Origin: a virus
DNA: 23,799 nucleotides
IMG/VR virus record: IMGVR_UViG_3300032309_001176
Span: 1 to 23,799 of that record
Direction: 5' to 3' (one strand)
Shown here: positions 1 through 23,481 of the stretch, in pieces
Numbering within the stretch: position 1 is the stretch's first letter
How the letters are laid out: each line of letters opens with the position of its first letter
Translations under genes and position numbers: made by a program
The notes under the pieces: model-generated
Told to the model about the DNA's origin: nothing
The model's input: the letters and a program-made list of their open reading frames with translations, nothing else
Databases searched by the model: none

Positions 1-2
1 TA

Positions 3-134
3 TCTCCTTTGATGTATCTAATCAACTATTCAATTCAAACGAATACCTCAGGTTATGAATTAATGACTCAAGTCGCATTCATGCCTTATGAATTTCAATA
101 TACCTTCGCTAAACATTTCATCAAAAGAAAATAA
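3..134 (+). CDS. 3' end of an unidentified gene, truncated by the window edge
   Basis: A frame open from the left edge ends at TAA 132-134. The 43 visible residues look like a genuine protein end, with mixed hydrophobic and polar residues and a basic tail (FAKHFIKRK). The frame ends 7 bases before the ATG of the next gene, the same tight packing seen between the later small genes. I do not recognise the product. An internal Met codon lies at 12, so a very short complete gene cannot be excluded, but a gene beginning outside the window is more likely. Confidence 0.5.
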   Translation, partial: SPLMYLINYSIQTNTSGYELMTQVAFMPYEFQYTFAKHFIKRK

Positions 135-141
135 TAAAACA

Positions 142-414
142 ATGGAAAAAATTACATTCGTTCAAAGAGTAGAAAAAGCACAATACATCACAATTGAAAT
201 CCCTGATGTTGAGTTATTCAAACAAAAAACAAAAGAGTTTGTTGAAGAAGAAGGTTCATTGAACTTTTGGAATCTTGAAGATGACCTATCTGATTATTGT
301 AAAGTAGTTTATGGTAAAGAGTATTCAGAAGAAGAAACTGATGGTCTCTTTGATGAATTAGATAAGATTGGAGTTGTATGGAATGACGAACAACTTTTGG
401 TAGAATCAGAATAA
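142..414 (+). CDS. small acidic protein, unknown function
   Basis: This gene encodes about 90 residues beginning MEKITFVQ. An upstream in-frame ATG at 88 exists, but I prefer 142: the extension overlaps the end of the preceding gene, and 142 follows an A-rich stretch like the leaders of the next three genes. The protein is strongly acidic, with Glu/Asp-rich stretches around residues 30-75, and shows no signal peptide, membrane segment or catalytic motif. It ends LVESE, a tail shared in near-identical form with the next two genes because those codons also form a promoter. It weakly resembles the product at 1497-1730 (beta-like N-terminus, then an acidic helix), which could mean distant paralogy. 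Function is unknown; a small early or accessory protein is likely. Confidence 0.75.
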   Translation: MEKITFVQRVEKAQYITIEIPDVELFKQKTKEFVEEEGSLNFWNLEDDLSDYCKVVYGKEYSEEETDGLFDELDKIGVVWNDEQLLVESE

Positions 415-427
415 CTCCTTATCTTTG
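395..427 (+). promoter_or_regulatory. Bacteroidota-type promoter P1 for the gene at 442
   Basis: TTTG at 396-399 (within TTTTGG) and TATCTTTG at 420-427 are separated by 20 bp, matching the Bacteroidota -33/-7 pattern (TTTG, TAnnTTTG). The upstream half is inside the end of the preceding gene, whose stop is at 412-414. The spacer contains GTAGAATCA (400-408), repeated in P2 and P3. Transcription should start a few bases downstream, giving a leader of roughly 10 A-rich bases. Confidence 0.8.
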
Positions 428-441
428 TAAAAATTAAAAAT

Positions 442-660
442 ATGAATCAAGAACAAGTAATAACTTATCTAAAGAGTTTAGACATCAATGAATTAGGTGA
501 CCTTCTTATTGAAGTAGGTGCCTTTAGAAATTCGGAAGTTTGTAAATCAGAAGTTGAAGACCAAAACGGTATTGAACTATACTATGATGAATATCAAGGT
601 GTAGATTATTGTGATGTCTTTATATTCCCAAGACAAAATAATTTTGTAGAATCAGAATAA
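442..660 (+). CDS. small acidic protein, unknown function
   Basis: This gene encodes 72 residues (MNQEQVITYL...). The start follows an A-rich leader just downstream of P1, so the gene has its own promoter. The N-terminus reads as an amphipathic helix (about residues 1-27). The rest is acidic and aromatic (ELYYDEYQGVDYCDVF) and looks beta-stranded. Two Cys residues are present but no recognised metal-binding pattern. The tail FVESE is written by the promoter P2 sequence. I recognise no family. Confidence 0.75.
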   Translation: MNQEQVITYLKSLDINELGDLLIEVGAFRNSEVCKSEVEDQNGIELYYDEYQGVDYCDVFIFPRQNNFVESE

Positions 661-673
661 ATCCTTATCTTTG
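642..673 (+). promoter_or_regulatory. Bacteroidota-type promoter P2 for the gene at 699
   Basis: TTTG at 643-646 and TATCTTTG at 666-673 are 19 bp apart. The GTAGAATCA element (646-654) is conserved with P1 and P3. The preceding gene's stop is at 658-660. The downstream leader 669-691 is identical over 23 bases to 932-954 in P3, so promoter and 5' untranslated region are repeated as one unit. Confidence 0.8.
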
Positions 674-698
674 TTCCTCACAATTAAAAAAACACACT

Positions 699-923
699 AT
701 GGACAAAATCAATCTAACAAGAACAGAATTAACTGAATTATTTTCAGAAATCCAAAAATTTTCTCTTGATGAAATCAATGAACACAATTCAGATGATAAC
801 TATAGCATTGAAGAAAAAAGATGGAATGAACAATATATGAGAGGTTTATCACACGGTGCTGAACTTTTAGCTAAAAATATTTTATCAACTATCAAGTATA
901 AAAATTTGGTAGAATCAAAATAA
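699..923 (+). CDS. small helical protein, unknown function
   Basis: This gene encodes 74 residues (MDKINLTRTELTEL...), transcribed from P2. It appears largely alpha-helical: a first helix around residues 6-27, an acidic Asn/Asp-rich turn at 28-36, and a second helix around 37-66 including a small Gly/Ala-rich stretch (RGLSHGAELLA). No enzyme motif or membrane segment is visible. The tail LVESK is encoded by the P3 promoter sequence. Unknown function. Confidence 0.75.
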   Translation: MDKINLTRTELTELFSEIQKFSLDEINEHNSDDNYSIEEKRWNEQYMRGLSHGAELLAKNILSTIKYKNLVESK

Positions 924-936
924 CTAATTACCTTTG
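905..936 (+). promoter_or_regulatory. Bacteroidota-type promoter P3 for the four-gene run starting at 963
   Basis: TTTG at 905-908 and TACCTTTG at 929-936 are 20 bp apart. GTAGAATCA is at 909-917. The preceding stop codon is at 921-923. The leader shares 23 identical bases with P2 (932-954 versus 669-691). No further copy is seen downstream, so P3 probably drives the tightly spaced genes from 963 to 1971. Confidence 0.8.
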
Positions 937-962
937 TTCCTCACAATTAAAAAATAAACATT

Positions 963-1199
963 ATGAAATTCTCTCAACTTAGTTACCAAGAAATCTTTGA
1001 CTCAATTGAAAAATTCGCAGACGAGTATGGTTCATTTATTGACCTTGACTGTGCTGACGAAATCATAGAAAAGTTCTATGAAGATTGGTCTAATGTATCT
1101 TTATCAGGAATGTCTAAGGACGAAGCCTTTATGTTCAACTCTATGTTGGAAGCTATGGTTAAAAATTATATTAACTTAACCCTTGTAAACGCCGACTAA
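963..1199 (+). CDS. small acidic helical protein, unknown function
   Basis: This gene encodes 78 residues (MKFSQLSYQEIFDSIEKF...). It is acidic and mostly helical, with two likely helices (about 8-22 and 51-73) flanking an acidic aromatic centre. It lacks the VESE-type tail because no promoter follows it. Its stop overlaps the next start (TAATG at 1197-1201), indicating translational coupling with the gene at 1199. Unknown function. Confidence 0.75.
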   Translation: MKFSQLSYQEIFDSIEKFADEYGSFIDLDCADEIIEKFYEDWSNVSLSGMSKDEAFMFNSMLEAMVKNYINLTLVNAD

Positions 1200-1495
1200 T
1201 GAGAAACCTAAATCAGAAACAACAGAAATGGGTATTAGAGAATACCCCAATTGGTAAAGTATTACACAAAGGACGCTACAATGCTAAGATTATTGGTCAC
1301 GAGCAGGGATATGTTATTATTGAAACAACAATCACAACAGAAGCCTTAGAGGAAAATTACAATATGGGATTGATTACCAAAGAAGAATTTTTAGGTGGTA
1401 TATCAAAAGTTTCAACTCGTATGAATGAAATTTTATACAGCAGTCCTATTTGGCACAACTATTTTCCTGAACTTAAAAATATTAAATCAAAGTAA
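1199..1495 (+). CDS. small basic protein, unknown function
   Basis: This gene encodes 98 residues (MRNLNQKQQKWVLENTPIGK...). Unlike most of its neighbours it is basic at both ends. The centre (about 28-46, AKIIGHEQGYVIIETTITT) looks like a beta hairpin and is followed by a helix. The start overlaps the previous stop and the next gene begins one base after this stop, so it sits inside a coupled run. No family is recognised. Confidence 0.72.
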   Translation: MRNLNQKQQKWVLENTPIGKVLHKGRYNAKIIGHEQGYVIIETTITTEALEENYNMGLITKEEFLGGISKVSTRMNEILYSSPIWHNYFPELKNIKSK

Positions 1496-1496
1496 G

Positions 1497-1730
1497 ATGA
1501 AAGAAATAACAATTACATCTACCGTTTATTGTGAACAAATACAGAACTTTCAAGTTACCGACGAGGTATATGAAAAGTATGTTTCACGACTTGAAAAATT
1601 AGAGATTGAAGATAATCAAGAAGAGCTAATTCAGTTGTATCTTGAACTTGAAGAAGACGCAGAAATGGTTGATGACTACATGCTTTCACAACTTGATGCT
1701 CCTGAAGTTATTAACAATATAGATTTTTAA
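1497..1730 (+). CDS. small, very acidic protein, unknown function
   Basis: I start this gene at the ATG at 1497, giving 77 residues. The longer in-frame start at 1425 would overlap the preceding gene by about 70 bases and is unlikely. The N-terminal third (KEITITSTVYCEQIQNFQV) looks beta-stranded. The rest is a strongly acidic helix with EE, ED and DD clusters. Such charge is seen in phage DNA-mimic inhibitors, but also in many small proteins of no known role, so I assign no function. It weakly resembles the product at 142-414. Confidence 0.72.
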   Translation: MKEITITSTVYCEQIQNFQVTDEVYEKYVSRLEKLEIEDNQEELIQLYLELEEDAEMVDDYMLSQLDAPEVINNIDF

Positions 1731-1731
1731 T

Positions 1732-1971
1732 ATGAGACAGTATATTGGTGGGGTGTATAAGGTTTCAATCATAGTTGATAACTACAACTCGTTTGAATAC
1801 CCATCAGAATCATTTAGACCCATCAAATTACCCGTTTATAAGATTGGGTATGATAAGTTAGGGAAAAGATATCAGAAGGTCACCAGAAGTCCTAAAATGA
1901 GAAATAAGATACTCAGAGAATTAAAGGTTGAACCTACTATGTTGAAGGACCTCCTGCTGATTGAGTTCTAA
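1732..1971 (+). CDS. small basic protein, unknown function, overlapping the convergent late operon
   Basis: This gene encodes 79 residues starting one base after the previous stop. The first half looks beta-rich (GGVYKVSIIVDNYNSFEYP). The second half is Lys/Arg-rich (about 41-66), suggesting nucleic-acid or acidic-protein contact, which is inference only. It is the last gene of the + strand run. Its final 35 bases overlap the end of the minus-strand connector gene, so the two transcripts are antisense to each other there. Confidence 0.7.
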   Translation: MRQYIGGVYKVSIIVDNYNSFEYPSESFRPIKLPVYKIGYDKLGKRYQKVTRSPKMRNKILRELKVEPTMLKDLLLIEF

Positions 1972-2518
1972 CAGTTACAGGTCCATACCAACTTGGGTAG
2001 AAAGAACGACCAGCTCCCATAGCCATCGCATTTCTAAAAGCAGAATCTCTTTGTGGTAACAACTTACCGATTTCAACTGTGTTGTATTTCGGAAAGTTTG
2101 ATGCGAAGGCACATAGGTATCTTCTCATATTGTTATCGTAGAACTCAGCAGTTGAACGAGCATTGTTCTTTAAGAATTGGAATGTCTTAAAATCTATATT
2201 AGACCCTTGTTCGGTTCTATTAGCAACCAACCCAACATTCATCCACTTAACAAAGAAGTTGTCTAATCCGTGATAATAAGACCACGCAATAGTGGTTGGA
2301 ACAATGTAGTTGTCCAATAGAAACTTGTTATCACCAGCGATTGTGTTACCACTAACTTCCCTAAGAATCTGTTCATACAAAGCTTGACCAAGAGTTTCTT
2401 GGATATTCAAATTTTGGGCAGTTTGAATACAAAATCTTAACTCACCTGAGTCAACATTGTCGTTAATTGCCGTCCTATTTTTAAGGACCTCCTCAGAAAT
2501 AAAATATACATCAGTCAT
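1937..2518 (-). CDS. putative head-tail connector (adaptor/neck) protein
   Basis: This gene encodes 193 residues and starts on the base where the portal gene ends, so the pair is translationally coupled. The protein looks mainly helical. It has an opening ISEEVLKNRTAI segment, a central LGQALYEQILREV helix (about 43-55), a Trp/Tyr-rich helix near 78-95 and a helix near 112-135. Small helical adaptors beside portals, and the Bacteroidota phage proteins with this type of ISE...L..T opening, are generally connector or neck components. I infer the same from the look of the sequence and its position; no catalytic motif is visible. The last 12 codons overlap the convergent + strand gene. It is the last gene of the late operon. 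Confidence 0.55.
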   Translation of the reverse strand: MTDVYFISEEVLKNRTAINDNVDSGELRFCIQTAQNLNIQETLGQALYEQILREVSGNTIAGDNKFLLDNYIVPTTIAWSYYHGLDNFFVKWMNVGLVANRTEQGSNIDFKTFQFLKNNARSTAEFYDNNMRRYLCAFASNFPKYNTVEIGKLLPQRDSAFRNAMAMGAGRSFYPSWYGPVTVRTQSAGGPST

Positions 2519-3594
2519 TATAATGCGGTATTTTGTATGATTTCAAGTTTAACATCAACACCAGGGTTCACAAGTTCAATCAAAGGTTTTAACTCTCTAA
2601 TCAAAAACTTCTGTGTTGGAATAATTGATGTATTCAAAAATAACTTTTGAGCTGTCTCCAACATCTCAGCACTTGAGTTGAACCCCGTCGGGGCTGGAAG
2701 CCCGATAAGGCTTCCATCTGGAATTTTATGTCCTGATAGTATCTGTCTTTGAACAAGCTCAAAGACCTCTTGGTAAAATCCTTGTTGAAGGTTTGATGAA
2801 ATCTGTGTGATTTCGGGCTTTCCTTCGCTACCTTCTGAATAGCTTACGGTAACTTTTCCTGCGTTTTTAGCACCACCATATCTCTCTTCTATTCTTTGTA
2901 AGATGGTTCTTTCCTCTGTCTCTGACTGAGGGAATCCATCACTAAAGTGAACCCATAAAGATGGATTAGCTCCGTTGATAAGATTAGCTAAGTTGTATAC
3001 GGTTATCTCGTGGTTCAATCTAATGTCGTTTATCACACTCAAATATTGAGGTGACCCATAAGCCCAATAAGCAGGATTCCTGTCTCTAATGTGGACTATT
3101 TGTCTATCTGTGAAGTTTCTTGGGTCAAACTGATTGAACTCAATAACACCAGCTTTTTTATACATCAACCAATCTCTACAATAAAAATATTTCTTAACTT
3201 CCAACTCAGCATTTTCAGGGACACCTACTCTCATATACTTTGATGGGATGTAATGTAAACCTGCTAATCCTTGAGACCTATCTTGTTTCCATACCACTTC
3301 CAAGAATAGATTACCTGTGATGATATAATCAAATACCATATCTCTGAACACATCGTTCAAAGTTTCTTTGTCTGTAAGTTTGTAGTCAGTAACAAAACCT
3401 TGACCAACGATATTATCAATCTTACTTCTTACACACGCATTATGAATTGGGGAGAAATCTAAAAGGTCATACAAACCATTTACGAAATGGTTCTCAACAC
3501 CCCAAGACACCCACGGCTGATTTCTTACAACTCTTTCTTCAAATTTTGTAATGGTATCAATGCTGAATCCGATATTTTGAATTATTTTTCTCAT
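2518..3594 (-). CDS. phage portal protein
   Basis: This gene encodes 358 residues that would form the dodecameric ring at the capsid vertex used for DNA packaging and neck attachment. Visible features are the N-terminal entry (NHFVNGLYDLLDF, about 35-47), the CVRSKIDNIVGQGF segment (54-67), the wing-like core IVHIRDRNP..WAYGSPQYLSVINDI (about 166-191), the long helix that follows, and the GLPAPTGFNSSAEML segment (298-312). These match PBSX/HK97-like portal proteins of Bacteroidota phages, and the length is normal to slightly short. Its start overlaps the stop of the 144-aa gene by one base. The oddity is location: portal genes usually open the head module, but here this gene is next to last in the operon. 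Confidence 0.85.
   Translation of the reverse strand: MRKIIQNIGFSIDTITKFEERVVRNQPWVSWGVENHFVNGLYDLLDFSPIHNACVRSKIDNIVGQGFVTDYKLTDKETLNDVFRDMVFDYIITGNLFLEVVWKQDRSQGLAGLHYIPSKYMRVGVPENAELEVKKYFYCRDWLMYKKAGVIEFNQFDPRNFTDRQIVHIRDRNPAYWAYGSPQYLSVINDIRLNHEITVYNLANLINGANPSLWVHFSDGFPQSETEERTILQRIEERYGGAKNAGKVTVSYSEGSEGKPEITQISSNLQQGFYQEVFELVQRQILSGHKIPDGSLIGLPAPTGFNSSAEMLETAQKLFLNTSIIPTQKFLIRELKPLIELVNPGVDVKLEIIQNTAL
2683..2715 (-). other. two adjacent GC-rich inverted repeats inside the portal gene
   Basis: CCCCGTCGGGG (2683-2693) can fold as a short stem. Three bases later GGAAGCC (2696-2702) pairs perfectly with GGCTTCC (2709-2715) around the loop CGATAA. They lie in codons of the conserved portal segment GLPAPTGF, so protein constraint may explain them. 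Confidence 0.3.
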
Positions 3595-4041: not shown

Positions 4042-4782
4042 TTAACATCCCGTGCTCCCATCAACGGTTATGTATAATGATTGTATTCCACTTCCAACAT
4101 AGTTGTATACTTGACTACATGCGAATCCTGAGTTAGGACAATTTGAATTATCTTGAGCTAAGATATATCCACCAATGGTATCAAAATACAGAACATCACC
4201 ATTGTTTAACCCTGTGATTGTTGTATAATAATTACAAGTTAAAGCATCAATATTTCCCACACTCACAGTTCCACCATAGTTTACTTGGTATTGTAAATAC
4301 GCTTCTTGAGTTCTGAATTTAGCATAAATTAAAAGTGAACCAGCAGAAGCAGTTCTACTTGGAGTTGGTGTTAATGTCGGTGTTTTAGTAGGCGTTGATG
4401 TGTTAGTAGGAGTGACTCCAATCGTTCCAGTTTGGCTTGGTGTAACCGTCGGAGTTCTTGTTTGAGTTGCGGTAACACTCGGTGTAACACTTGGGGTTAC
4501 ATTAGGTGTTCTTGTAGGGCTAGGTGTGTTCGTTGCGGTCGGAGTAAAAGTTGGAAGACCAACAATATCTAAATTGATAAAGTTGATACACTCACCATCA
4601 GATTTTACTTTGATGATTGTTGTTCCATAAGGTAATGATGTTGTATAATAACCGTATGTAAATGCGGATACAGGTAAGTTGGTTTCAAATGGCGTTGTGT
4701 AACCATCCAAGTTTGAATATAAATCAAATGGTCCAACTAGTGCTCCTAAATCCGTTAATGTTATTAATACTCCGTATGCCAT
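4042..4782 (-). CDS. PT-linker virion protein with two small beta modules
   Basis: This gene encodes 246 residues in three parts. Residues 1-75 form a beta-like module (TDLGALVGPFDLYSNLDG..., with TTIIKVKSDGECINF). Residues 76-147 are a Pro/Thr-rich linker of the TPSVTP/TPTNTS type. Residues 148-246 form a second beta-like module with four Cys before a C-terminal Cys (DGSTGC). The first module resembles short beta modules common in Bacteroidota phage structural proteins. The gene follows the 760-aa linker protein by 5 bases. The likely role is an exposed fibre or decoration protein binding host surface or glycans. No enzymatic motif is visible. Confidence 0.65.
   Translation of the reverse strand: MAYGVLITLTDLGALVGPFDLYSNLDGYTTPFETNLPVSAFTYGYYTTSLPYGTTIIKVKSDGECINFINLDIVGLPTFTPTATNTPSPTRTPNVTPSVTPSVTATQTRTPTVTPSQTGTIGVTPTNTSTPTKTPTLTPTPSRTASAGSLLIYAKFRTQEAYLQYQVNYGGTVSVGNIDALTCNYYTTITGLNNGDVLYFDTIGGYILAQDNSNCPNSGFACSQVYNYVGSGIQSLYITVDGSTGC
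4342..4557 (-). repeat. PT-linker tract of the 246-aa protein
   Basis: This stretch encodes residues 76-147, built from imperfect hexapeptides such as TPSVTP, TPTNTS and TPTLTP, giving an 18-base periodicity. The coding strand is C+A-rich with few G. A short non-repeat island (TGTIGV) interrupts it near residue 120. Confidence 0.85.
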
Positions 4783-4787
4783 AATTT

Positions 4788-7070
4788 TTAAGGTGTTGGT
4801 GGGATATGATATGGTTCTATTCTACATGCTAAAGCTCTTGAGAAACTAGCACCTGAAGGAACTCCTGTTGAACCACTCCAAGAAATACCATCATAAGAAT
4901 AGAAAGATTTAGCTCCATTATTAGCGGATACAACATAAGTTGTTCCATTATAAACAATTGTTTCAGGTGTTGTAAATGCTGATTGAGTTATACCTGTCCA
5001 AGAAATACCGTTTGTTGAATGTGCCAATTGGAATGTTGGTCCAGTTCCAATCGCTAACCATTTAGTTCCATCCCAAGTAATATTTGTAACCTCAGTAGTT
5101 ATTGGTGATGTTGTTCCTGTCCAATTTATACCATCATAAGAATAACCTAAAGTATTTGGTGATACTTGTCCGCCAGCAACCCACATGCTTCCATTATACC
5201 ATACATCTCTAATATTACCAGGTGTGAAATTTGTGGTTGTAGTTGCTGACCAAGTTGTTCCACTGTTATCAGAATATTTTAAATCACTATTACCACCCGC
5301 AACAATTCTGCTTCCATTGTAACCAAATGTTCTTATTAAAAAGTTAGCCGTTGATTTATAAGTCCAACTTATACCATTTGTAGATGTGTAAGCACTACTT
5401 CCAATACCTGCTAACCAAAAATCACCAAAGAAATATACATCTTTAGCACTGAAACCACTTGTTGTAGAATCAAACGCTGTTGACCAATCAATACCATTAT
5501 TTGATGAATATAATATTTGAGTTTTATTAGGAAGTTGGTTATCTGCTGTAGCAACCCAAACATTATTTCCATAAGCAATCTCTTGAACTGTTACTCCTGT
5601 GAAATTAGAATTGGTTGAGACATAAGATAATCCATTATTATCAGAATAGTAGATTGTGTTATCAGCTCCAATTAGAAATCTTATACTTCCAATGTTTGGT
5701 GTTTGGCTAGGAGTATTAGTTTGAGTTACACTAGGTGTCGGGGTGAAAGTTTGAGTCGGAGTCGGGGTGGGAGTCGGACAAATTAAAGGATAAGATATTG
5801 ACCTTGTTGTTAAATAAACACCTGGACTTGGATATGAAATTCCTGATGATAATGTTGTGCCAGTTCCAATAACAACTGCTGTGGAAGGAGGGACTCTTGA
5901 AATCCAATAATTTGGACCAGCAACAAAACCAATAGTATAAATATCATTTTGAAATAATTGATATGATGTTCCACTTAATGAACCATCAATCAATGGACCA
6001 GTCGCTCCTGAAAAATATCCAATAGTAGTTGCCGAATATGTTCCATTAACTCCACTGTATGTCCCCGTTACACCACTTAAAATAACTTGAGAAGGACATA
6101 TAAAAGTCGGAGTAGAAGACGGGGTAACACTAGGAGTTTGTGTTGCGGTATTAGATTGAGTCATTGTATTGGTCGGAGTCATTGTATTGGTCTGGGTTAC
6201 GGTCTGAGTAGGAGTCATTGTATTTGTCGGAGTTACACTTGGTGTTTGTGTGGCAGTGTTAGTTGGTGTGTTTGTCTGAGTTTGTGTTTGTGTGTTTGTC
6301 TGAGTTTGTGTTTGTGTCTGAGTAGGAGAGCTTGTTTGAGTTAAAGTGGGGGTGGGCGTAGGACAACTTACAGGATATGTAATATAATAATTATTATTAT
6401 TATCAAATCCTGGACTTGGATATTTTATATTACTGATTGTGCTCAAAGTAAAATCAAGAACAATTGTTAAACCAGGAGTTAAACCAACAACATAATTATC
6501 TGTTCTTTTAGTTATACCATAACCATTTATAGAAGGATTAGATTGGGTTATCGCATATATTGTATAATAATTTGTTCCATCAAATCTTCCATAAGCAATA
6601 CCATAATTTCCATCTGAACCTGGTGTATCAAATACCCAGTTTGATATAGTTGAGAAGAATACATAATTAAATGTTCCGCCAGACCAACTCGTCAATCTTG
6701 TATAAGTTCCATTGTATTCTGTTAAACCTGAATTCGTTGAATTGATTGTAATTTCTTGAGGACAAACGGGATTCGGAGTGGGTGTAGGGCTAGGAGTTTT
6801 AGTTTGTGTTTGTGACGGAGTTTGTGTTTGTGTTTGTGTTTGTGTCTGTGTTTGTGTCTGTGTTTGACTGGCAGTATTTGTCGGAGTAACTGTATTAGTA
6901 GGAGTTACCGTCGGAGTCTGGGTTGAAGTGGGGGTCGGTGGGAAATCTTGATACTGAGCGCTACCTGAGAAAGCACAACCAGGTTCTACTCCTTTAACTT
7001 TGATATCCCATATCGGTCTTAGTTCACCAAGATATGTTGACCATTTTGTTTGTAAAAATTGACTACCCAT
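4788..7070 (-). CDS. large fibre-like protein: two paralogous beta modules and an Asp-box propeller on PT linkers
   Basis: This gene encodes 760 residues. Residues 1-43 are a unique N-terminus that may be the virion anchor. PT/QT-rich linkers occupy about 44-102, 237-322 and 432-459. Modules A (about 103-236) and B (about 323-431) are diverged copies of each other, sharing a Cys-Pro start, an NGTY segment, an I.YPSPG segment and a Cys-Pro exit. Residues 460-750 contain seven repeats of the form YS.(D/N)G..W (near 475, 521, 561, 599, 643, 684 and 724), consistent with a seven-bladed propeller with Asp-box motifs as in sialidase/BNR-like folds. I see no sialidase catalytic Arg triad, so binding is more likely than hydrolysis. 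The protein ends PPTP, like the stub of another linker. The likely role is receptor or glycan binding. Confidence 0.75.
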   Translation of the reverse strand: MGSQFLQTKWSTYLGELRPIWDIKVKGVEPGCAFSGSAQYQDFPPTPTSTQTPTVTPTNTVTPTNTASQTQTQTQTQTQTQTQTPSQTQTKTPSPTPTPNPVCPQEITINSTNSGLTEYNGTYTRLTSWSGGTFNYVFFSTISNWVFDTPGSDGNYGIAYGRFDGTNYYTIYAITQSNPSINGYGITKRTDNYVVGLTPGLTIVLDFTLSTISNIKYPSPGFDNNNNYYITYPVSCPTPTPTLTQTSSPTQTQTQTQTNTQTQTQTNTPTNTATQTPSVTPTNTMTPTQTVTQTNTMTPTNTMTQSNTATQTPSVTPSSTPTFICPSQVILSGVTGTYSGVNGTYSATTIGYFSGATGPLIDGSLSGTSYQLFQNDIYTIGFVAGPNYWISRVPPSTAVVIGTGTTLSSGISYPSPGVYLTTRSISYPLICPTPTPTPTQTFTPTPSVTQTNTPSQTPNIGSIRFLIGADNTIYYSDNNGLSYVSTNSNFTGVTVQEIAYGNNVWVATADNQLPNKTQILYSSNNGIDWSTAFDSTTSGFSAKDVYFFGDFWLAGIGSSAYTSTNGISWTYKSTANFLIRTFGYNGSRIVAGGNSDLKYSDNSGTTWSATTTTNFTPGNIRDVWYNGSMWVAGGQVSPNTLGYSYDGINWTGTTSPITTEVTNITWDGTKWLAIGTGPTFQLAHSTNGISWTGITQSAFTTPETIVYNGTTYVVSANNGAKSFYSYDGISWSGSTGVPSGASFSRALACRIEPYHIPPTP
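5694..5780 (-). repeat. PT-linker tract 3 of the 760-aa protein
   Basis: This stretch encodes residues 431-459, from the closing Cys of module B to the start of the propeller domain. It consists of TPTPTPTQ and TPSVTQ type units. Confidence 0.85.
6105..6365 (-). repeat. PT/QT-linker tract 2 of the 760-aa protein
   Basis: This is the longest linker, encoding residues 236-322. It combines QT dipeptide runs (hexanucleotide-like DNA, about 6271-6321) with TPTNTM and QTPSVT units in 18-base steps. Part of it (6248-6287) is nearly identical to linker DNA in the 622-aa gene (8695-8734, 36 of 40 bases). Confidence 0.88.
6765..6941 (-). repeat. PT/QT-linker tract 1 of the 760-aa protein
   Basis: This stretch encodes residues 44-102. 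Its centre (about 6821-6866) is an almost pure hexanucleotide array, TTTGTG on the + strand, encoding alternating Gln-Thr. Gain or loss of units would preserve the reading frame. Confidence 0.88.
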
Positions 7071-7084
7071 TAATTAATTTTAAT

Positions 7085-8953
7085 TTACCAACCTGAATAA
7101 ACATATTTTGTTTTAAGATAGTTTACAACATTGTTATGTTCTGTTGTAGTTAATTCTCTGTTATAATATAACCACTCAAACATATAAACATTTTGTGTGT
7201 AATTATCAGGACCATCACTGCTGATAAGATATCTACTTAATGTTGTTCCTGTATAAGAACCTGATGTTCCACTTGTTGAGAAAGAACCATTTATTGTTCC
7301 ATACATATTAGAACTATTTCCTGAAGAAATTAACAGTGATGCTGTATTTATCGGAGAAAAATTGATAGTTCCTTTATAGTTAGCGACACTACTAGCACTA
7401 CTAGTTTGACCATAACCAAATGAATAGGATGTTCCAGATGCTAATGAAATATACCAACCTGCTGGAGTAGGAGTCACAGGTTTATAAACCATATATTGTG
7501 TATGTGCTGTTACTGATGTATTTGATGTTGAACCAGTATATCCAATACTTGGTTTTACAAATCTAACTGCTGTTCCTGTAAATCCAGTTCCAAGTGTTAT
7601 TCCTGATTCTATTGATGGTTGTTGAATAGCAACTGATTGAGTTGCTGAACCACCTAATAAACCATAGTTAGTCCAAGATGAAGTAGTTGCTCCACTATTA
7701 GACATAAACCATAATTGTAGGTTTGTTACACCTGATGGACTGAAAACAGTTGGCGTTGAGCTCGGAGTTGGTGTGACTGTATTAGTTGGAGAAGAAGTGA
7801 TACTCGGAGTTATACTAGGAGTTGGTGTCGGAACAGGAGAAGCCCACTCATCATATCTCCATTTATCACGAAGATAATTCTGAACTGCTACTCTTTGTTG
7901 ATAGGTAAGTTCTCTTGTATAAATCATTACCTCCGCTAATTCCATACCAGCATTTTGTGCTGTTAAAGTTCCACCTGAAACCACAGATGCTCCAATAATA
8001 AACGAGTTAAATGTTGTTACTGGTGTTCCTGTAATTGCTGTTGTGTTTGTTGCTCCTGATTGGTTGATTTCCAAATATTGATTACCCGTTGGATAAGGTG
8101 CTGCTAATGTAAGTAAGAACTTATCATTCAAGTTGGTAGCACTATATGAATAACTGTAAGCGTTTGTTATTCCGCTATTTTGGAGTATGAAAGAAGAAGA
8201 GTTTAAACCAGCACCGAAATTATTATTGAATACTCTTGGTGGCTGATTTATCAATGGTGTTATTGGTGTGAATCCACCGTTTGTTGTGTTACCTGAATAT
8301 AAGTAGAATTGAGCACCAAATCCATTCGCATTTGTTGTTCCTGAATAGTTATAACCCGCAGTAGTCATAACATAGAATGCGGTAATACCTGCTCCTGTAA
8401 TAACTGTGCTATCAAATCTTTGTGTTAAGAATTCTCTTAAACCAGCTGTAGCACTCTTGGTAAATCTAACAATCTTTGGATTACCAGGTAATGATGTTGA
8501 ACCCGACCACTGAGGCATTGTATCAGTTGTAGTCCCTGTTAAAGTTTTACTATAAGTTCCAATACTTCTCCATGCTGAAACATAATCAGTTCCACCTGAA
8601 GTAATATAATCTATTGAACCTATATTGGTTGAGTCATACCATAAGTCAGGTGTTGATGGTAAAATATAAGGAGTTGAAGAAGGTGTTAAAGTCGGTGTGG
8701 CAGTATTAGTTGGTGTGTTCGTTTGTGTTTGTGTCGGAGTGAAAGTTGGGGTCACACTAGGAGTCGGAGTAACATCAGGTGTCGTTCCACCTTCTTCAGC
8801 TGGCACGGCATTGATAACATAACCAGTCAGAACTGCTGAACCCAATTTTGTCTTTTGGGACAATGGTTTCATCAATTCATTAATATCATCCTTCTCAACC
8901 TTGATAAAATTTGTTACTGGTCTGTATGACCTACCGTTCCATACTAATCTCAT
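7085..8953 (-). CDS. fibre-like protein with two LamG/concanavalin-type modules on PT linkers
   Basis: This gene encodes 622 residues. Residues 1-56 form a unique N-terminus (MRLVWNGRSYRPVTNFIKVE...), possibly the virion anchor. PT linkers occupy about 57-97 and 374-402. Each large module starts with a L.LW(Y/F) type strand (about 103 and 412) and ends with the same signature: a strand, then Y.REL plus a helix ending NYL..K (338-367 and 590-619). That ending is typical of LamG/concanavalin A-like domains, where the strand is followed by a short capping helix. Such domains usually bind glycans or proteins. The gene follows the capsid and tube-like genes after a strong hairpin, suggesting lower expression as a decoration or fibre. 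Head versus tail location cannot be told from sequence. Confidence 0.72.
   Translation of the reverse strand: MRLVWNGRSYRPVTNFIKVEKDDINELMKPLSQKTKLGSAVLTGYVINAVPAEEGGTTPDVTPTPSVTPTFTPTQTQTNTPTNTATPTLTPSSTPYILPSTPDLWYDSTNIGSIDYITSGGTDYVSAWRSIGTYSKTLTGTTTDTMPQWSGSTSLPGNPKIVRFTKSATAGLREFLTQRFDSTVITGAGITAFYVMTTAGYNYSGTTNANGFGAQFYLYSGNTTNGGFTPITPLINQPPRVFNNNFGAGLNSSSFILQNSGITNAYSYSYSATNLNDKFLLTLAAPYPTGNQYLEINQSGATNTTAITGTPVTTFNSFIIGASVVSGGTLTAQNAGMELAEVMIYTRELTYQQRVAVQNYLRDKWRYDEWASPVPTPTPSITPSITSSPTNTVTPTPSSTPTVFSPSGVTNLQLWFMSNSGATTSSWTNYGLLGGSATQSVAIQQPSIESGITLGTGFTGTAVRFVKPSIGYTGSTSNTSVTAHTQYMVYKPVTPTPAGWYISLASGTSYSFGYGQTSSASSVANYKGTINFSPINTASLLISSGNSSNMYGTINGSFSTSGTSGSYTGTTLSRYLISSDGPDNYTQNVYMFEWLYYNRELTTTEHNNVVNYLKTKYVYSGW
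7748..7837 (-). repeat. PT-linker tract 2 of the 622-aa protein
   Basis: This stretch encodes residues 373-402 between the two LamG-like modules. It is shorter than the others and Ser-richer (TPSITPSITSSP). Confidence 0.82.
8648..8785 (-). repeat. PT-linker tract 1 of the 622-aa protein
   Basis: This stretch encodes residues 57-102, separating the N-terminal anchor from the first LamG-like module. It contains TPTPSVTPTFTP and TQTQTNTP units. Bases 8695-8734 are close to 6248-6287 in the 760-aa gene. Confidence 0.85.
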
Positions 8954-11338: not shown

Positions 11339-13957
11339 TTACTGATTTATTTGATTTAGAATGTTTATTATTTCTTCCAATAAATAGTCATCATTATTGG
11401 ATGAAGAGAACTTATATTCAAAATTCCCTTCTATTGAAATTCCTTTTACTTGTCCTTGTTTAATCATATCCCAAACTTCTTGATTATCAATACGAAATCC
11501 TACCATCCAGGTCCCAACAGGAACTTGTTCAGGTGTGTAACCTAATGAGTAAGCTTTGTCTTGTTGACCGTTAACAATCCAAGATTCAACTAAATACACA
11601 TCTTCAAACTTAACATCTGAATGTTCGTAGTTAGTTTTGTTTGTTCTACCCTCAATTAAAAATCTTTGAGCCATACGCTCAATCGTTTCTGGTTTGAATG
11701 TAACAAAATATTTCTCTCTTGTTACCTCATCCAATCTTGGAATAAGAATACCAGGTTTCATTGCTGGTGAATATATCATTCTCTTTTCCTCGTCTAACGA
11801 GAATTGAGTGGACATCTTTTGTTTCTTTAATGAACATGCTTGGAACATTCCCTCACCCAAATAATCTACTGGCTCATATGAACCACCACATCCACATCCG
11901 AATGACCACTCCTTGGCATCTTCTTTATTTTTGAATATTGCTAATCCCTGTAAGAAACCAGCAGGTAAAGCTTTAAGTGATGTTGGATTTTTAACATTGA
12001 TACCCAATTCTGAATAAGCTCTTCTAGCATCAGCTGAATTATCAATTGCTTCAGAAATCATATATCCCTTTTTCTTCAACTCTTCAGCTTTGTATTTCTT
12101 AAACGCATTTCCTGCGTTAGGTCCTTGTGGGAAATCTGATAAATAAATCTCATCCCATTTGAGACCAATTCTATCTAACTCTCTTTCTGTTTCTCCTGTT
12201 CTTGATTTCTGTCTAGCTGATACAATTACGATTCTATGGTCTTCCCATTTTCTATTCACATAATCTACCGTCTTCTGAATTGGTGAGTTACCTCTAACCA
12301 ATGTATCATCAACATCAACAATGATTACTCTTGACTCTGAACTTCCAAATTCTTCTTTGGACATACCAACTGATTGTGGACTCCTTGAACCATAATCAAC
12401 AGGAGGGTTAACCATGCCAGCCATATTTGGTGCGGGGATTTGATAATCAGCATCCTCTTTCATCCTTCTGGCGTTATTTGTAATCTTTGTTTGTTCTGTT
12501 TGTTCTGAGGTAATACCTGCGATACCTGGTGAGAACACAAGTTGTAACCAATAATGTCTACAATTAGCTCCCATTTTATATTGAAAACAATCTACAGATG
12601 TTCCTTTAGGTCTTGGAACTAATTTATATGAATTAGGTGCTGCTTCAAGTGCTGAAGATAAAGCAACAATGTCTTCATATCTGAAAACAAATTGTCTACC
12701 ACCTAACATCCTTCTACACATTTCTCTTGATGTTTCAATAAGTTCTGAACCAAAACCAACCATATAGACATATCTAAATCTTTTGTTACCTAAATCTTGT
12801 GATGAGGCTTCACCAGGTGTTGTAATAATTTGAACGAATTGTTCTGGTTTCATTTTGTTGAATTTCTGACCCATCTCTTTTCTAATCTTGTCTGCGTCAA
12901 CTTCATTAACCTCATCAATTACCCAACCTTGTTTTAATAGCTCTTCTAATTCAACACCTCTATCTTCAATATATTTTTGAATTTCTGGTGATGTCTCTTG
13001 ATTGATTTCAGGGTTATGAACATCACAAGGCATGTAAACAACTTTACCATCTACCATATGTTCGTGTGAACCATTACAACCAATAACTTGTGCGTAAGTC
13101 GCAGCTTCATCAGCTGACTCAAACACTGGCATTCCGTTAATCATTGTTGTGCCAAAATATAAACCATCGGTATCAATTGTTCCATCAGAACAACCACATC
13201 CACAACCATCCACTTCAGCGAAATGTGAATCCCACATCCCATAACATTTTCCAGCTGCTTCTTCAGCTGACTTACCTTCGTTTCTAACATACGCAATACA
13301 TCTACTAATATATGATTCTTTATCTTCACCTGAATTAGGTTTAACAAATGTTTCCTCTGTCTTTGTGAATCCTTCTATTGGAACGCAATTAGGCACCATT
13401 TTTCCGTCTTTCTCCTTCATGCCTATCATCTCATACCCATCGTAACAAGGCTCCTTAAATTCGGTTGTTCCTGAAGTTTGTGACCAAGGCGTTAATGAAC
13501 CAACATCATATCCCATTTCTTCTTCAATTCTTTGAAGGTATTTTTCTGACCAGTCAAGAGCTTCAACACCTCCCCAAGAATCATATGCGAGCAATCCGCA
13601 CGAACCTTCATAACTCTTTGATGTCTCCAAATCTTTTTTGTGACGAGCTAGATAAGAATACATTCTTCTAATCGTTTCAATTGAGATGGGTTCACCCTTA
13701 GCCAGTTGATTCAATCTGTTCTTTCCTACAGGAGTCATACAACTACCGTATCCGTTCTCATCTACATACTTCTTGGCTCTTTGAGCGTTATCAATGATAT
13801 ACTGAGGATAGTCATTTACCGTCTCCTCAAATCCTTCTTTAGAGAACCACATAAACTCTGTCTCAATAGCAGGTTGTAATACCAATGCGATTTCTTCAAC
13901 TCTGGTATCACCACTTAATGCTTCATCAATATCTAATTCAATTACTCTTAGTGCCAT
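11339..13957 (-). CDS. multidomain head maturation protein: minor-head-like region, HAD phosphatase-like domain, XkdF-type protease
   Basis: This gene encodes 872 residues. Residues about 62-145 carry a Cys/Gly-containing helical domain (GSCMTPVGKNRLNQLAKG, then SYLARHKK and SWGG). About 170-245 is a Cys-containing segment with SRCIAYV...AAGKCYGMW. At 250-258 lies a CGCGC cluster. About 325-480 ends with a CRHYW motif (466-470), typical of minor-head-like regions in Bacteroidota phages. Residues 543-655 form a HAD-like domain: DVDDTLV (nucleophile Asp548, acid Asp550), Ser580 and Asp639 as motif candidates. A second Cys cluster is at 687-690. Residues about 715-850 match XkdF-type prohead protease: H779, the VESWIV strand, VGTWMVGFRI, and GISIEG with Ser841 as candidate nucleophile. 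The size is far above a lone protease. Adjacent scaffold and capsid genes fit a maturation role. Confidence 0.75.
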   Translation of the reverse strand: MALRVIELDIDEALSGDTRVEEIALVLQPAIETEFMWFSKEGFEETVNDYPQYIIDNAQRAKKYVDENGYGSCMTPVGKNRLNQLAKGEPISIETIRRMYSYLARHKKDLETSKSYEGSCGLLAYDSWGGVEALDWSEKYLQRIEEEMGYDVGSLTPWSQTSGTTEFKEPCYDGYEMIGMKEKDGKMVPNCVPIEGFTKTEETFVKPNSGEDKESYISRCIAYVRNEGKSAEEAAGKCYGMWDSHFAEVDGCGCGCSDGTIDTDGLYFGTTMINGMPVFESADEAATYAQVIGCNGSHEHMVDGKVVYMPCDVHNPEINQETSPEIQKYIEDRGVELEELLKQGWVIDEVNEVDADKIRKEMGQKFNKMKPEQFVQIITTPGEASSQDLGNKRFRYVYMVGFGSELIETSREMCRRMLGGRQFVFRYEDIVALSSALEAAPNSYKLVPRPKGTSVDCFQYKMGANCRHYWLQLVFSPGIAGITSEQTEQTKITNNARRMKEDADYQIPAPNMAGMVNPPVDYGSRSPQSVGMSKEEFGSSESRVIIVDVDDTLVRGNSPIQKTVDYVNRKWEDHRIVIVSARQKSRTGETERELDRIGLKWDEIYLSDFPQGPNAGNAFKKYKAEELKKKGYMISEAIDNSADARRAYSELGINVKNPTSLKALPAGFLQGLAIFKNKEDAKEWSFGCGCGGSYEPVDYLGEGMFQACSLKKQKMSTQFSLDEEKRMIYSPAMKPGILIPRLDEVTREKYFVTFKPETIERMAQRFLIEGRTNKTNYEHSDVKFEDVYLVESWIVNGQQDKAYSLGYTPEQVPVGTWMVGFRIDNQEVWDMIKQGQVKGISIEGNFEYKFSSSNNDDYLLEEIINILNQINQ

Positions 13958-19804: not shown

Positions 19805-22057
19805 TTAGCTATTCAATAATTTAATATTATTTGAGTAAACATAAGTCAATTCAACATTTGTGATAGACCTGTTACCTTTTGTTTTTCTTACGAAATCATT
19901 TCCGATAATATTGATTGGGAATAATGAACCATCTTCGTTTATAAGATATGCGTCATTAGTTGTATACAATTCTTCCAAGTATACAAAGTCAGGGTCGTTT
20001 ATAAAACCTGAGTTTACAATATGTGTTTCAACAATCTGAGTTTGATAATCAGTTGTTCCTCTTGAATATGTTGTCTTGATTGGATTAGATGAACCCCATG
20101 CGATATTCCATTGTCCATAAGTTTGTCTATCAATACCGATACCTTCACTTCTATACTTTTGAAATCTAAAGTAATCCCATGCTCCGTAACGATTCTTAAA
20201 CATAATTTGTGGGTTCAAGAAGTAGTCACAATTTGGAACAACATTAAATTGGAATATTTCAGACACTGCGGTATATCCTGATACACAAGGACCAGTTCCA
20301 CCTGAGGGTGAGATTGTGGATGGTTGAACATCAGGTTTTAATGTCGTAGGTCTTAGTGGTTCGTTCTCACAAGGAAAGTTAGCTTTACACTCATTACAAT
20401 TGATGTAAGTAGCAGCTCCAAGATAGTTTCCGTTTGAACCGTCACCACCATAAGCCACAACCTCGTAACATTGTGAGTCAATGATAATAACATCACCGAT
20501 GTTTAATACTGCGTCAACGATAACTTGATATTCGGTGCCAGCACAACATCCTCTTACTAAAACATTTCTACTTACAGCAGGAGTGTTACTCGGAGTGGGG
20601 GTCGGTGTGACTGAAGGATTTACACAAGGGTTACCACAGTTAACAATTGTGAAAGCTGCTAAATCTGCGAAAGGAAAACCTGGTCCGAATGTATTACAAT
20701 TCAAACATCCACTAAACGATAATGTTCCAAGTGCTGTTGCGTTGTAGTAAACTGAGTTACCATTACAATCATTATATTTTAACCATCCTGTATTTGTAAT
20801 ATTCAATGTCGCTCCTGATACACAACTTCCAACTGAAGGAGTTGAGCTTGGAGTCGGACTCACATTAGGAGTGGGGGTTGGTTGAACACTACAAGCACCT
20901 AAGTCAGTAAAGGTTATACCAGGTTGTGCTTCATAACTTCTAAGACAAACATTATATGATTCAAAAGGAGCTGCGAAGAATCCAACAGTAAATCCATAAC
21001 AATCAATGTAGAATACCTCAGTGTAAAAATCAAAGTTATTAGTTATCTGATAAGACCTACAAGTAGTTGATGTTGATGACGGAGTAATACTCGGAGTGGG
21101 TGTGGGCGATAATCCTGGTGTTTTAGTCGGAGTCTGGCTCGGAGTTATAGATGGAGTCGGGGTGGGAGTCGGTTGGATTCCTTTACCGAATAATTGAACT
21201 TGATAATAGTCAGTATCTGACGGAAAGTCATATATGTTTTTTGGACCGACACCAATATTCAAAATGTTATAAAGTGATTCACCTGTAAAAGTTGTGTTCA
21301 AATAGTTCTGAGAACATGCTGTTGCTGGTCCTCCACCATTACTTACAATATTTGAGTAAGTTTTCTCTTCAATGAAATAACCATTTCTATCGTAGAAAGT
21401 ATACTTGGCATAATAAGGTTCAGACAAATAGTCACCTCCTAAATCACCATTGGTAAATGATAATGTAAAATATTCTTGTGTTGATATCTCTCTAATTCTT
21501 GGTGAGTTAGTTAAGAACAAACAATTCTGTGTTTCTGGAAATGCTGGTTGTGGACTACCTGATAATGTGAATTGACCGATATTGAAGTATGGTAAGTTAG
21601 CGTTTCTATTGACTCCCATTGTCCCCAAGAAACACTTAAAAGTTTCAGATGGAACACCAGGTTGTCCCACTTGTGTTCCGTTCCCTGTGAACCCTGTAAT
21701 GTTGGATATGAAGGTATCAGCATATTCTTCACCAACTTGAATGTAGTAATCAATTACTTCATTTGAGTATGGTCTTGAAAATGGAGTTGTTTGGTGGGCA
21801 TAGATAACAGTTTCATCTTGGTAAGCAATAGGATAGTTTTGTAGATAAGAATCTAATACTCTTGATAAATCAATGATACCAAGACCATAAGGGTTTGGGG
21901 TTGCTTTACCTTGAAATACCAATGCTCCTTCAGCGTAGACATTGTATACAAATCTAAACTTTGGTTTCGTTGCTGTGTCTGCGGACACTGTGAAATAAAT
22001 CCCATCAGATTTTGATGGTTGAAAATACTCAGGGTTTCTTACTATTACTGTGCTCAT
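19805..22057 (-). CDS. tail protein interrupted by three PT-linked Cys-rich cassettes
   Basis: This gene encodes 750 residues. Residues 1-293 and about 591-750 look like two halves of one conserved tail protein, the second containing FKNRYGAWDYFRFQKY (620-635). Between them lie three cassettes. Cassette 1 (332-390) and cassette 2 (410-478) share a pattern of Cys, ITN, a strand, then CYG or CNG, and later Cys, so they appear paralogous. Cassette 3 (496-563) differs (GCCAGTEYQV, GDVIIIDSQCYEV, INCNECKANFPC). PT linkers occupy 295-330, 391-408 and 481-495, and a Pro/Ser/Thr stretch (569-590) closes the insert. The gene lies one base from its neighbours on both sides. The likely role is a tail-side structural protein displaying surface-binding loops; the split reading is inference. 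Confidence 0.65.
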   Translation of the reverse strand: MSTVIVRNPEYFQPSKSDGIYFTVSADTATKPKFRFVYNVYAEGALVFQGKATPNPYGLGIIDLSRVLDSYLQNYPIAYQDETVIYAHQTTPFSRPYSNEVIDYYIQVGEEYADTFISNITGFTGNGTQVGQPGVPSETFKCFLGTMGVNRNANLPYFNIGQFTLSGSPQPAFPETQNCLFLTNSPRIREISTQEYFTLSFTNGDLGGDYLSEPYYAKYTFYDRNGYFIEEKTYSNIVSNGGGPATACSQNYLNTTFTGESLYNILNIGVGPKNIYDFPSDTDYYQVQLFGKGIQPTPTPTPSITPSQTPTKTPGLSPTPTPSITPSSTSTTCRSYQITNNFDFYTEVFYIDCYGFTVGFFAAPFESYNVCLRSYEAQPGITFTDLGACSVQPTPTPNVSPTPSSTPSVGSCVSGATLNITNTGWLKYNDCNGNSVYYNATALGTLSFSGCLNCNTFGPGFPFADLAAFTIVNCGNPCVNPSVTPTPTPSNTPAVSRNVLVRGCCAGTEYQVIVDAVLNIGDVIIIDSQCYEVVAYGGDGSNGNYLGAATYINCNECKANFPCENEPLRPTTLKPDVQPSTISPSGGTGPCVSGYTAVSEIFQFNVVPNCDYFLNPQIMFKNRYGAWDYFRFQKYRSEGIGIDRQTYGQWNIAWGSSNPIKTTYSRGTTDYQTQIVETHIVNSGFINDPDFVYLEELYTTNDAYLINEDGSLFPINIIGNDFVRKTKGNRSITNVELTYVYSNNIKLLNS
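20573..20617 (-). repeat. PT-linker tract 3 of the 750-aa protein
   Basis: This short linker encodes residues 481-495 between Cys-rich cassettes 2 and 3 (TPTPTPSNTP). Confidence 0.78.
20834..20887 (-). repeat. PT-linker tract 2 of the 750-aa protein
   Basis: This linker encodes residues 391-408 between the two paralogous Cys-rich cassettes (QPTPTPNVSPTPSSTP). Confidence 0.78.
21068..21175 (-). repeat. PT-linker tract 1 of the 750-aa protein
   Basis: This linker encodes residues 295-330 at the junction between the conserved N-terminal half and the first cassette. Two TPTPSITPS units flank a TKTPGLS stretch. Confidence 0.82.
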
Positions 22058-22058
22058 A

Positions 22059-22598
22059 CTATCCTATTAAATTTACAAGACCATCATCAATTAAGTTTTG
22101 GAAGTATACCGCCATTGCTTCTTCTCCCAACTCTGTTAATTGTGTTATAACCTGGTCTTCGGCTTTGGTTAAAAAGTTGATACCCTTGTAACCTTTTTCT
22201 TTAATGCTTCTGGCAATCAAAAATGCTTTTGAATCTAATGATTGTCTTTTGAATCTACCTTGTTCATCTCTCCAATAAACTGGCTTAATTTTAATCCATC
22301 TTTTTATAGCTTCAAGTGGGGGATATGATAATGATGGTTTTCTTCCTTCATCAATCATATCGGGTAAGAACGATGGTTGAACCGTTGGAAATGATACAGC
22401 CAACATTGGGTCACCCTGTTCAATGTCTACAACCCACTCTACGGTCAAATCTCTGAGTAATGAACCCGAAGCCTTTCTTGGACTATTACCTCTCTTAAAA
22501 CCACCGTAATAACCTTGAGAACGATATGGTGTAAGGAGTTGTCTTCTAACTGCCTCATACAATAACACTCTCATTTGTTCCATCTGTTCTGGATTCAT
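22059..22598 (-). CDS. putative head-tail joining protein, HK97 gp10-like
   Basis: This gene encodes 179 residues. The middle is beta-like with Pro- and Arg-rich loops (DEGRKPSLSYPPLEAIKRWIKIK, about 83-105). The segment SKAFLIARSIKEKGYKGINFL (about 123-143) matches the pattern in HK97 gp10-like neck proteins, where an A..IAR.I...G....FL motif is followed by a C-terminal helix. These proteins join the connector to the tail. Here the C-terminal helix is acidic (QVITQLTELGEEAMAVYFQNLI). The gene sits between the tail-completion-like gene (10-base gap) and the 750-aa tail gene (1-base gap), consistent with a neck role. The assignment is by pattern and context. Confidence 0.6.
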   Translation of the reverse strand: MNPEQMEQMRVLLYEAVRRQLLTPYRSQGYYGGFKRGNSPRKASGSLLRDLTVEWVVDIEQGDPMLAVSFPTVQPSFLPDMIDEGRKPSLSYPPLEAIKRWIKIKPVYWRDEQGRFKRQSLDSKAFLIARSIKEKGYKGINFLTKAEDQVITQLTELGEEAMAVYFQNLIDDGLVNLIG

Positions 22599-22608
22599 AA
22601 CTTACATT

Positions 22609-23481
22609 TTAACAAGATTGATATCCCGCTGGTTGTGGCATTCCATTTACCAAATTCCAAGTAGAGTTTGTTAGAGCATACTTAGCGAAGTATGTCCCTG
22701 CTGGTATCGTTAATCCTGTGTTTAGATATAAAGTATCTGATGGATTGTAATCAAACCAGAATTGTTTATTACCGTATAATATCACATTGATTGTTGAACT
22801 ACTACATGCGTTAGGTTGAGTAGAACCTGTTGATACAGCGAAAGCATAAACACCTGGAGGTAAACCACCACTAGGACTAATAGTTGGAGTGTTCGTATTA
22901 GTTGGTGTGATTGTCGGAGTTGCGGTATTAGTCGGAGTAACATTAGGTGTTCTTGTAATTGTCGGTGTGACTGTAGGAGTGCTTGTCTGACTTGGTGTCG
23001 GTTGATTCGGTGTTGAGCTCGGAGTCGGGGTTGGGTATTGAGGACATGCGTTGATGTCTTCATAAACAATGATGTTGGCATCCAAAGCAACACCAGCAAC
23101 ATTATCATTAAATCTTTCAAGGAAAGGTTGAGCTGATTGTGGCAATGTGATATCAAAATAATCTTGAAGATTACCTCGTCTTATTTCCGATAAGAAGTTT
23201 CTGGCATTTAATGATGAGTCAGAAATACAATCAACTTCATTGTCCAAGTTATCGTTTAATCTATCTGCGAAGATTAGAGTTACTTGGTATGTTGTTGTGT
23301 TCTCATCATAAGTTATTGATAAAGGAACAACGAATAGAAATGGATATACCACAGTTGAACCTGAGACATTCTTACCGAAGTCAACAAGGTTACCATATCC
23401 AAATGAATTAATCATTGGATTACCTTCTTGATACTCTTGAAGAAGGCTTATTATCTTATGAAAGGTTATGTATGTTTCCAT
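22609..23481 (-). CDS. putative tail completion/terminator protein with PT-linked C-terminal module
   Basis: This gene encodes 290 residues. Residues 1-146 form a compact domain (an N-terminal helix, NSFGYGNLVDF, then strands YPFLFVVPLSITYDENTTTYQVTLIFADRL in two parts, then a helix with LNARNFLSEI) resembling tail terminator or completion proteins of Bacteroidota phages. Residues 148-204 are a PT linker (TPTNTATPTITPTNTNTPT type). Residues about 205-290 form a small beta module with a Pro/Gly turn (IPAGTYFAKYAL) and a terminal Cys. The known family is normally only about the length of the first domain, so linker and module look like an added appendage. The start overlaps the preceding stop (TAATG). 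Likely located at the neck, displaying the extra module; this is inference. Confidence 0.6.
   Translation of the reverse strand: METYITFHKIISLLQEYQEGNPMINSFGYGNLVDFGKNVSGSTVVYPFLFVVPLSITYDENTTTYQVTLIFADRLNDNLDNEVDCISDSSLNARNFLSEIRRGNLQDYFDITLPQSAQPFLERFNDNVAGVALDANIIVYEDINACPQYPTPTPSSTPNQPTPSQTSTPTVTPTITRTPNVTPTNTATPTITPTNTNTPTISPSGGLPPGVYAFAVSTGSTQPNACSSSTINVILYGNKQFWFDYNPSDTLYLNTGLTIPAGTYFAKYALTNSTWNLVNGMPQPAGYQSC
22870..23043 (-). repeat. PT-linker tract of the 290-aa protein
   Basis: This linker encodes residues 147-204 with regular hexapeptides (TPTNTA, TPTITP, TNTNTP), linking a neck-type domain to a small C-terminal module. Confidence 0.83.

Follow-up and report, generated by a model that had tools for sequence, protein, structure and literature searches.

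The early region of this tailed phage of Bacteroidota is probably built from small genes and copies of one promoter, which supply the C-terminal tails of the genes before them and serve as joints at which genes are exchanged. Small genes would be preceded by copies of a strong host-type promoter, whose −33 box and spacer form an extended conserved block (TTTGGTAGwATCArAATAA, followed by 4–5 nt and TAtCTTTGT), and by a short A-rich leader. The genes are tightly packed, so that a preceding gene would often run into the promoter. The promoter-leader unit would then act as a joint, where a new gene enters on the 3' side while the unit still terminates the gene on the 5' side. As active early promoters the units would be read, spacer included, by the host RNA polymerase, and genes would be exchanged by homologous recombination between units. 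The promoters themselves are ordinary; their position is unusual and its consequence is orderly.

The repeated promoter in the window

The window is the whole virus record, 23,799 bases. Small plus-strand genes occupy 88–1971, and the remainder is mostly on the minus strand, where a portal protein and a protein matching proteases are encoded. A single reading frame of 872 aa at 11339–13957 is matched in different stretches by portal-family, polynucleotide-kinase-like and head-protease profiles, and is a predicted multi-domain fusion. In several structural-region proteins on the minus strand (4042–8953 and 19805–23481), domains are joined by long linkers of Thr/Pro-rich repeats (TPTPTPS and similar).

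Gene 1 (142–414, plus strand, as are the features that follow) ends LVESE, and the upstream half of promoter 1 (396–427) forms its final codons. In this promoter the −33 TTTG lies at 396–399, the stop codon of gene 1 at 412–414 within the spacer, and the −7 box TATCTTTG at 420–427 (weight-matrix score 38). A short, A-rich leader (428–441) leads into gene 2 (442–660), which ends FVESE in promoter 2 (643–673; TTTG 643–646, stop 658–660 within the spacer, TATCTTTG 666–673, score 36). Gene 3 (699–923), with its leader at 674–698, ends LVESK in promoter 3 (905–936; TTTG 905–908, stop 921–923 within the spacer, −7 box TACCTTTG 929–936, score 39). The leader of gene 4 (937–962) is a copy of the gene 3 leader, and positions 669–691 and 932–954 agree at 23/23 positions, as the first-pass annotation had reported. 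Genes 4–7 (963–1971), of which gene 4 ends LVNAD, form a closely spaced run, and no further promoter copy was found between these four plus-strand genes.

The promoters lie in three 55-nt repeats (391–445, 637–691 and 900–954), each containing TTTG, GTAGAATCA(G/A)AATAA and TANCTTTG. The TAA stops of genes 1–3 inside the spacers are part of the repeat itself. The composite pattern GTAGAATCANAATAAN{5,8}TANNTTTG matched the window only at 400–427, 646–673 and 909–936, and had 0 matches in 100 dinucleotide shuffles of the window. The 9-mer GTAGAATCA alone, with at most one mismatch, was not enriched in the window (9 seen vs 8.3 expected), and the signal is therefore the composite. The spacing from the −33 to the −7 box is 20, 19 and 20 bp for promoters 1, 2 and 3, and all three copies have the Bacteroidota primary-sigma arrangement of TTTG and TAnnTTTG at 19–20 bp. 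The earlier description of a repeated Bacteroidota-type promoter with a stop codon inside its spacer is thereby confirmed.

The same annotation held that the three consecutive proteins are unrelated apart from their ends. This is borne out by tblastn, in which seven window genes served as queries for all loci plus the window itself (E up to 0.01) and the proteins of genes 1–3 gave no mutual matches. Gene duplication is ruled out as a source of the tails, since the window genes show no cross-matches.

Extent in other phages

Portal-related loci were fetched (the best 80 of 109), together with 9 and 33 stretches found by exact pattern, which are partly overlapping sets, and parts of five named phage records. 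A weight matrix was trained on the portal-selected loci plus the window. At >16 bits it gave 97 matches in 37 of the portal-selected loci and window, and 0 in reversed sequence. At >20 bits there were 208 matches in 114 phage loci (1,062,854 bases), a density that is not a rate because part of the sample was selected by motif; the reversed control (0 matches) shows specificity. Removal of same-context repeats left 164 units. The counts of units, families and genes leave out copies of the window (L001–L003) and of other loci (L107, L108, L112, L113), the host loci L093–L099 and L123–L141, and L167 and L168, which were fetched later. Genes were called by script as simple ATG open reading frames of at least 40 codons, without a trained gene finder.

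Carriers of the extended block include Flavobacterium, Elizabethkingia, Bacteroides and crAss-like phages. A microvirus (5.4 kb, 8 annotated genes) has it too, directly adjoining the stop codon of its replication gene. Window positions 1–2520 had no DNA match in the phages collection. Among named phages, the best matches of the portal were Nonlabens P12024 phages (25% identity), then P2-like and others.

Why unrelated proteins share a tail

The element GTAGAATCAGAATAA contains an in-frame TAA, and its frame reads V-E-S-E-stop (in the promoter, L-V-E/V-S-E/K-stop). Unrelated proteins end alike because the promoter carries this stretch. Among 1401 distinct called genes, the ending V(E/V)S(E/K) occurs in 15, and 15/15 have a promoter in their end, as the first-pass annotation's proposal that the promoter imposes the tail leads one to expect; since the sample was partly selected by motif and the tail codons lie within the matrix, the calls of promoter and tail are not fully independent. 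The tail occurred in 0/1351 genes without a promoter in their end.

The stop of the preceding gene (at least 45 codons) falls at offset 17 in 26 of the 164 units, giving LVESE, LVVSK and similar ends. It falls at offset 11 in 12 units (LAD, LVD and similar), while in 28 the gene stands flush before the −33 box (offsets −2 and −3). For 26/164 units no preceding gene of at least 45 codons was found. Overlap was seen in 53 cases from 46 families; 38 families are in the frame of these TAA stops, 3 in the frame of the TAG in GGTAG and 5 in the third frame. A stop is on offer in 112/164 units in the TAA frame and in 96/164 in the frame of GGTAG's TAG. Stop usage in 605 genes on the same strands was TAA in 482 and TAG in 62, and the bias toward one frame can therefore be accounted for by TAA preference. 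An account of the bias by protein function is unneeded.

Homologs with and without a following promoter provide natural tests of whether the tail depends on it. Five loci (L053, L050, L054, L058 and L057) have homologs of gene 1 with no following promoter, and these end FGEE or FDAE. Family 35 ends LVVSK inside a promoter in L101 and FIHN just before a promoter in L106, runs through the promoter in L105, and has neither promoter nor tail in L035. With AAGAA in place of AATAA, families 42 and 73 read on to LVVSKELVSL. Against such a dependence, family 28 ends DLID both with and without a called promoter. A tail in homologs that lack a downstream promoter, which the first-pass annotation had named as evidence to the contrary, was absent from the five gene 1 homologs and present in one weakened case, a homolog of gene 4 in L025 that ends IESE. 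The sequence under this IESE resembles the unit, scores −1.2 and has no −7 box, and looks like a decayed promoter. On these sequences the shared tail is a by-product of DNA overlap and not a sign of protein kinship, and the view that the promoter imposes it is well supported.

Promoter-gene units and gene exchange

In the relatives, gene order in the array is a mosaic of pieces, each consisting of a promoter and one or a few genes. Fifty-two families adjoin a promoter in at least two loci. More than one neighbour on a side was found for 20/52, and the neighbours of the other 32/52 are unchanged, many because the contigs are near-identical. In families 33, 35, 37, 42 and 60 every member is preceded by a promoter. 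L101 and L106 have a common gene followed by an identical promoter and leader, and diverge at the next start codon into unrelated genes. L060 and L062 are near-identical and differ mainly in a promoter block between two common genes. In such relatives the unit coincides, judged by sequence, with a boundary of gene exchange.

Agreement between leaders is higher inside a locus, at 0.545 over 370 pairs, than across loci, at 0.429 with a permutation maximum of 0.459, and the 4-nt gap before the −7 box behaves likewise (0.588 vs 0.389). An exact 21-nt copy of the window's leader was found in a single further viral contig, L167 (portal identity 28%). L167 has two further copies with two mismatches, and all of its copies precede genes unrelated to those of the window. 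By contrast L013, the nearest locus by portal (97%; among the best 80 of 109), lacks genes 1–6 and lacks the motif; the region therefore turns over fast. The early region of L013 (10402–12884) is wholly different from that of the window except for a homolog of gene 7. In the window, the convergent genes at 1732–1971 (plus) and 1937–2518 (minus) overlap by 35 bp (1937–1971), and a similar overlap is present in L013 (10402–10439).

The spread of a gene-plus-promoter cassette, proposed from the window sequence, thus holds in part. For the phage family it is likely, given the changing neighbours and the L101/L106 pair. At the window itself it is plausible, and support there is confined to the repeated leader and the exact L167 copy of it, because single-protein searches of viral_contigs with genes 1, 2 and 3 found no relatives; the homologs of gene 1 came instead from the portal-selected loci.

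The spacer

In the parts of the published work considered here, the host consensus of Bacteroidota consists only of TTTG and TAnnTTTG, and the −33 box is weak in F. johnsoniae (PMC6847099, PMC7366714). Transcription is described as starting 4–5 nt past the −7 box (PMC6847099). The window-type promoter has an additional conserved block in its spacer, GTAGwATCArAATAA. A strict pattern gave 7 matches in genomes, 6 of them in records titled Prevotella. A looser pattern matched 29/60 genomes from a single genus, that of G001 (whose record is titled Prevotella), with 63 matches vs 2 in the control; G001 and G002, which are within these 60, had been reached via the motif. Among 395 genomes of the same phylum, matches occurred in only 3, one of them G001 (control 1).

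Of the genus sites fetched, 17/20 have a long reading frame downstream, and 10 that were scanned belong to unrelated families. A cobalamin riboswitch directly follows 4 of the strict matches (6 of 7 loci scanned). The block is thus found in Prevotella chromosomes (L093, L094, L096, L099 and genomes of the G001 genus), for example directly before such riboswitches, and these sites are possibly a strong-promoter subclass of that genus. L097, from a record titled as a Staphylococcus MAG, has a perfect Bacteroidota-type promoter (3276–3308) before an S15-like gene identified by eye; this assembly may be mislabelled. A role of the canonical spacer as a hairpin or dyad was ruled out, as its pairing is at the permuted level.

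Alternative explanations

The tail might itself be under selection as a signal for stability, degradation or targeting, with the likeness to a promoter secondary. The same tail on many unrelated proteins and the strong preference for one frame (38/46 families) would fit, but the preference follows from TAA usage, promoter-less homologs have no tail, and genes without a promoter in their end lack it throughout. A tail kept for the sake of the protein would also be expected with synonymous codons; these are absent, which argues against selection on the protein. We regard this explanation as highly improbable. Compaction is a more serious competitor, though still an unlikely one. Here promoters would have been placed one by one close to gene ends, with the overlap due to chance and to selection for small size, and there would be no cassettes. 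Stops flush with or inside promoters at many offsets, a frame bias explained by TAA preference, and gene turnover in L013 without the motif all agree with it. Against it, the differences between L101 and L106 and between L060 and L062 coincide with the promoter-leader unit, families retain their promoter while changing neighbours, and an exact 21-nt leader is common to a phage with a 28% identical portal.

The conserved spacer had also been suggested to be an operator, at which a phage- or host-encoded regulator would bind GTAGwATCA in all these promoters and switch the early genes together. In favour, conservation of the spacer goes well beyond the host consensus given in the parts of the two reports cited above, and most of the phylum's genomes lack a match to it (3/395 with one). 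However, it recurs in unrelated phages, among them a microvirus of 5.4 kb with 8 annotated genes, and in 29/60 genomes of the Prevotella genus before unrelated gene families (10 scanned), and it has no covarying dyad. The operator is not supported by these occurrences and seems improbable to us. Such recurrence is a better fit for an extended core promoter, presumably read by the host RNA polymerase.

Promoters that overlap gene ends explain how unrelated small phage proteins come to have a common C-terminus, and they warn against reading such tails as homology or function. With the promoter as a mark, early-gene arrays can be searched for in uncultured phages of Bacteroidota, and its extended block might be of use as a strong promoter for genetic work in these bacteria. 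The question of how a phage ensures that a newly inserted gene is expressed as well as terminated becomes testable. More tentatively, and with somewhat less than even confidence, the unit may be a standard joint of 50–70 bp that gives a stop and a C-terminus on its 5' side, a strong host promoter and leader on its 3' side, and homology for recombination, forming a plug-in early array across unrelated phages of the phylum. If so, any gene dropped between two units would be both terminated and expressed.

Comparison with known systems

We recognised no description of such a promoter array in Bacteroidota phages among the titles, abstract openings and passages considered, which is weak evidence of novelty. 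The promoter-early stem-loops (PeSLs) of T4-type phages are reportedly treated by Arbiol (2010) and Comeau (2014). In the portions of two accounts used here, PeSLs are repeated intergenic units with an early-type promoter at sites of gene shuffling (PMC4503421, PMC3950731). The units of this study are likewise repeated, carry an early-type promoter (by consensus) and are dense in a gene-rich variable region; they also stand at joints of gene shuffling, seen here in the relatives. In contrast to the PeSLs as described there, the window units have no stem-loop joined to the promoter (−1.7 to −2.7 kcal/mol, z about 0), their promoter is the host promoter of Bacteroidota type in a phage that is not T4-type, and the unit reaches into the preceding gene to supply its last codons and stop.

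In the relatives, 10/164 units carry a strong hairpin that spans the −33 box or the spacer (z below −5, with energies of −12.8 to −18.8 kcal/mol). These lie at L042:− 6661, L102:+ 5190 and 6939, L110:− 11461, 12009 and 12388, L143:+ 4485, L054:− 1393, L103:− 10373 and L008:− 4166 (0-based, on the named strand). They are candidate terminator-promoter composites, some of them with a T run behind the hairpin. Some phages therefore seem to combine a terminator with a promoter, which is the PeSL design, in a minority of units. Because the stem-loop is missing, we do not file the window system as a PeSL; it works like PeSLs.

Start-associated sequences (SAS) of Cluster K mycobacteriophages are described, in the part of the report used, as a 13-bp repeat, GGGATAGGAGCCC, a few bp from the start codon (PMC3203893). 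Like the present units they precede many small non-structural genes, and preceding stops can fall inside the repeat (PMC3203893). However, SAS lie at the ribosome binding site with a proposed translational role, whereas here the repeat comprises promoter and leader and begins upstream of the leader. The 17-bp repeats of Cluster O mycobacteriophages, as far as the passages used describe them, are also at gene boundaries, with indels explained by recombination between copies, but they are palindromic and mostly away from promoters (PMC4351075). With the Bacteroidota primary-sigma promoters, in the published portions compared, the units have in common both boxes and their spacing (PMC6847099, PMC7366714), and differ from them in the extra spacer block and the conserved leader.
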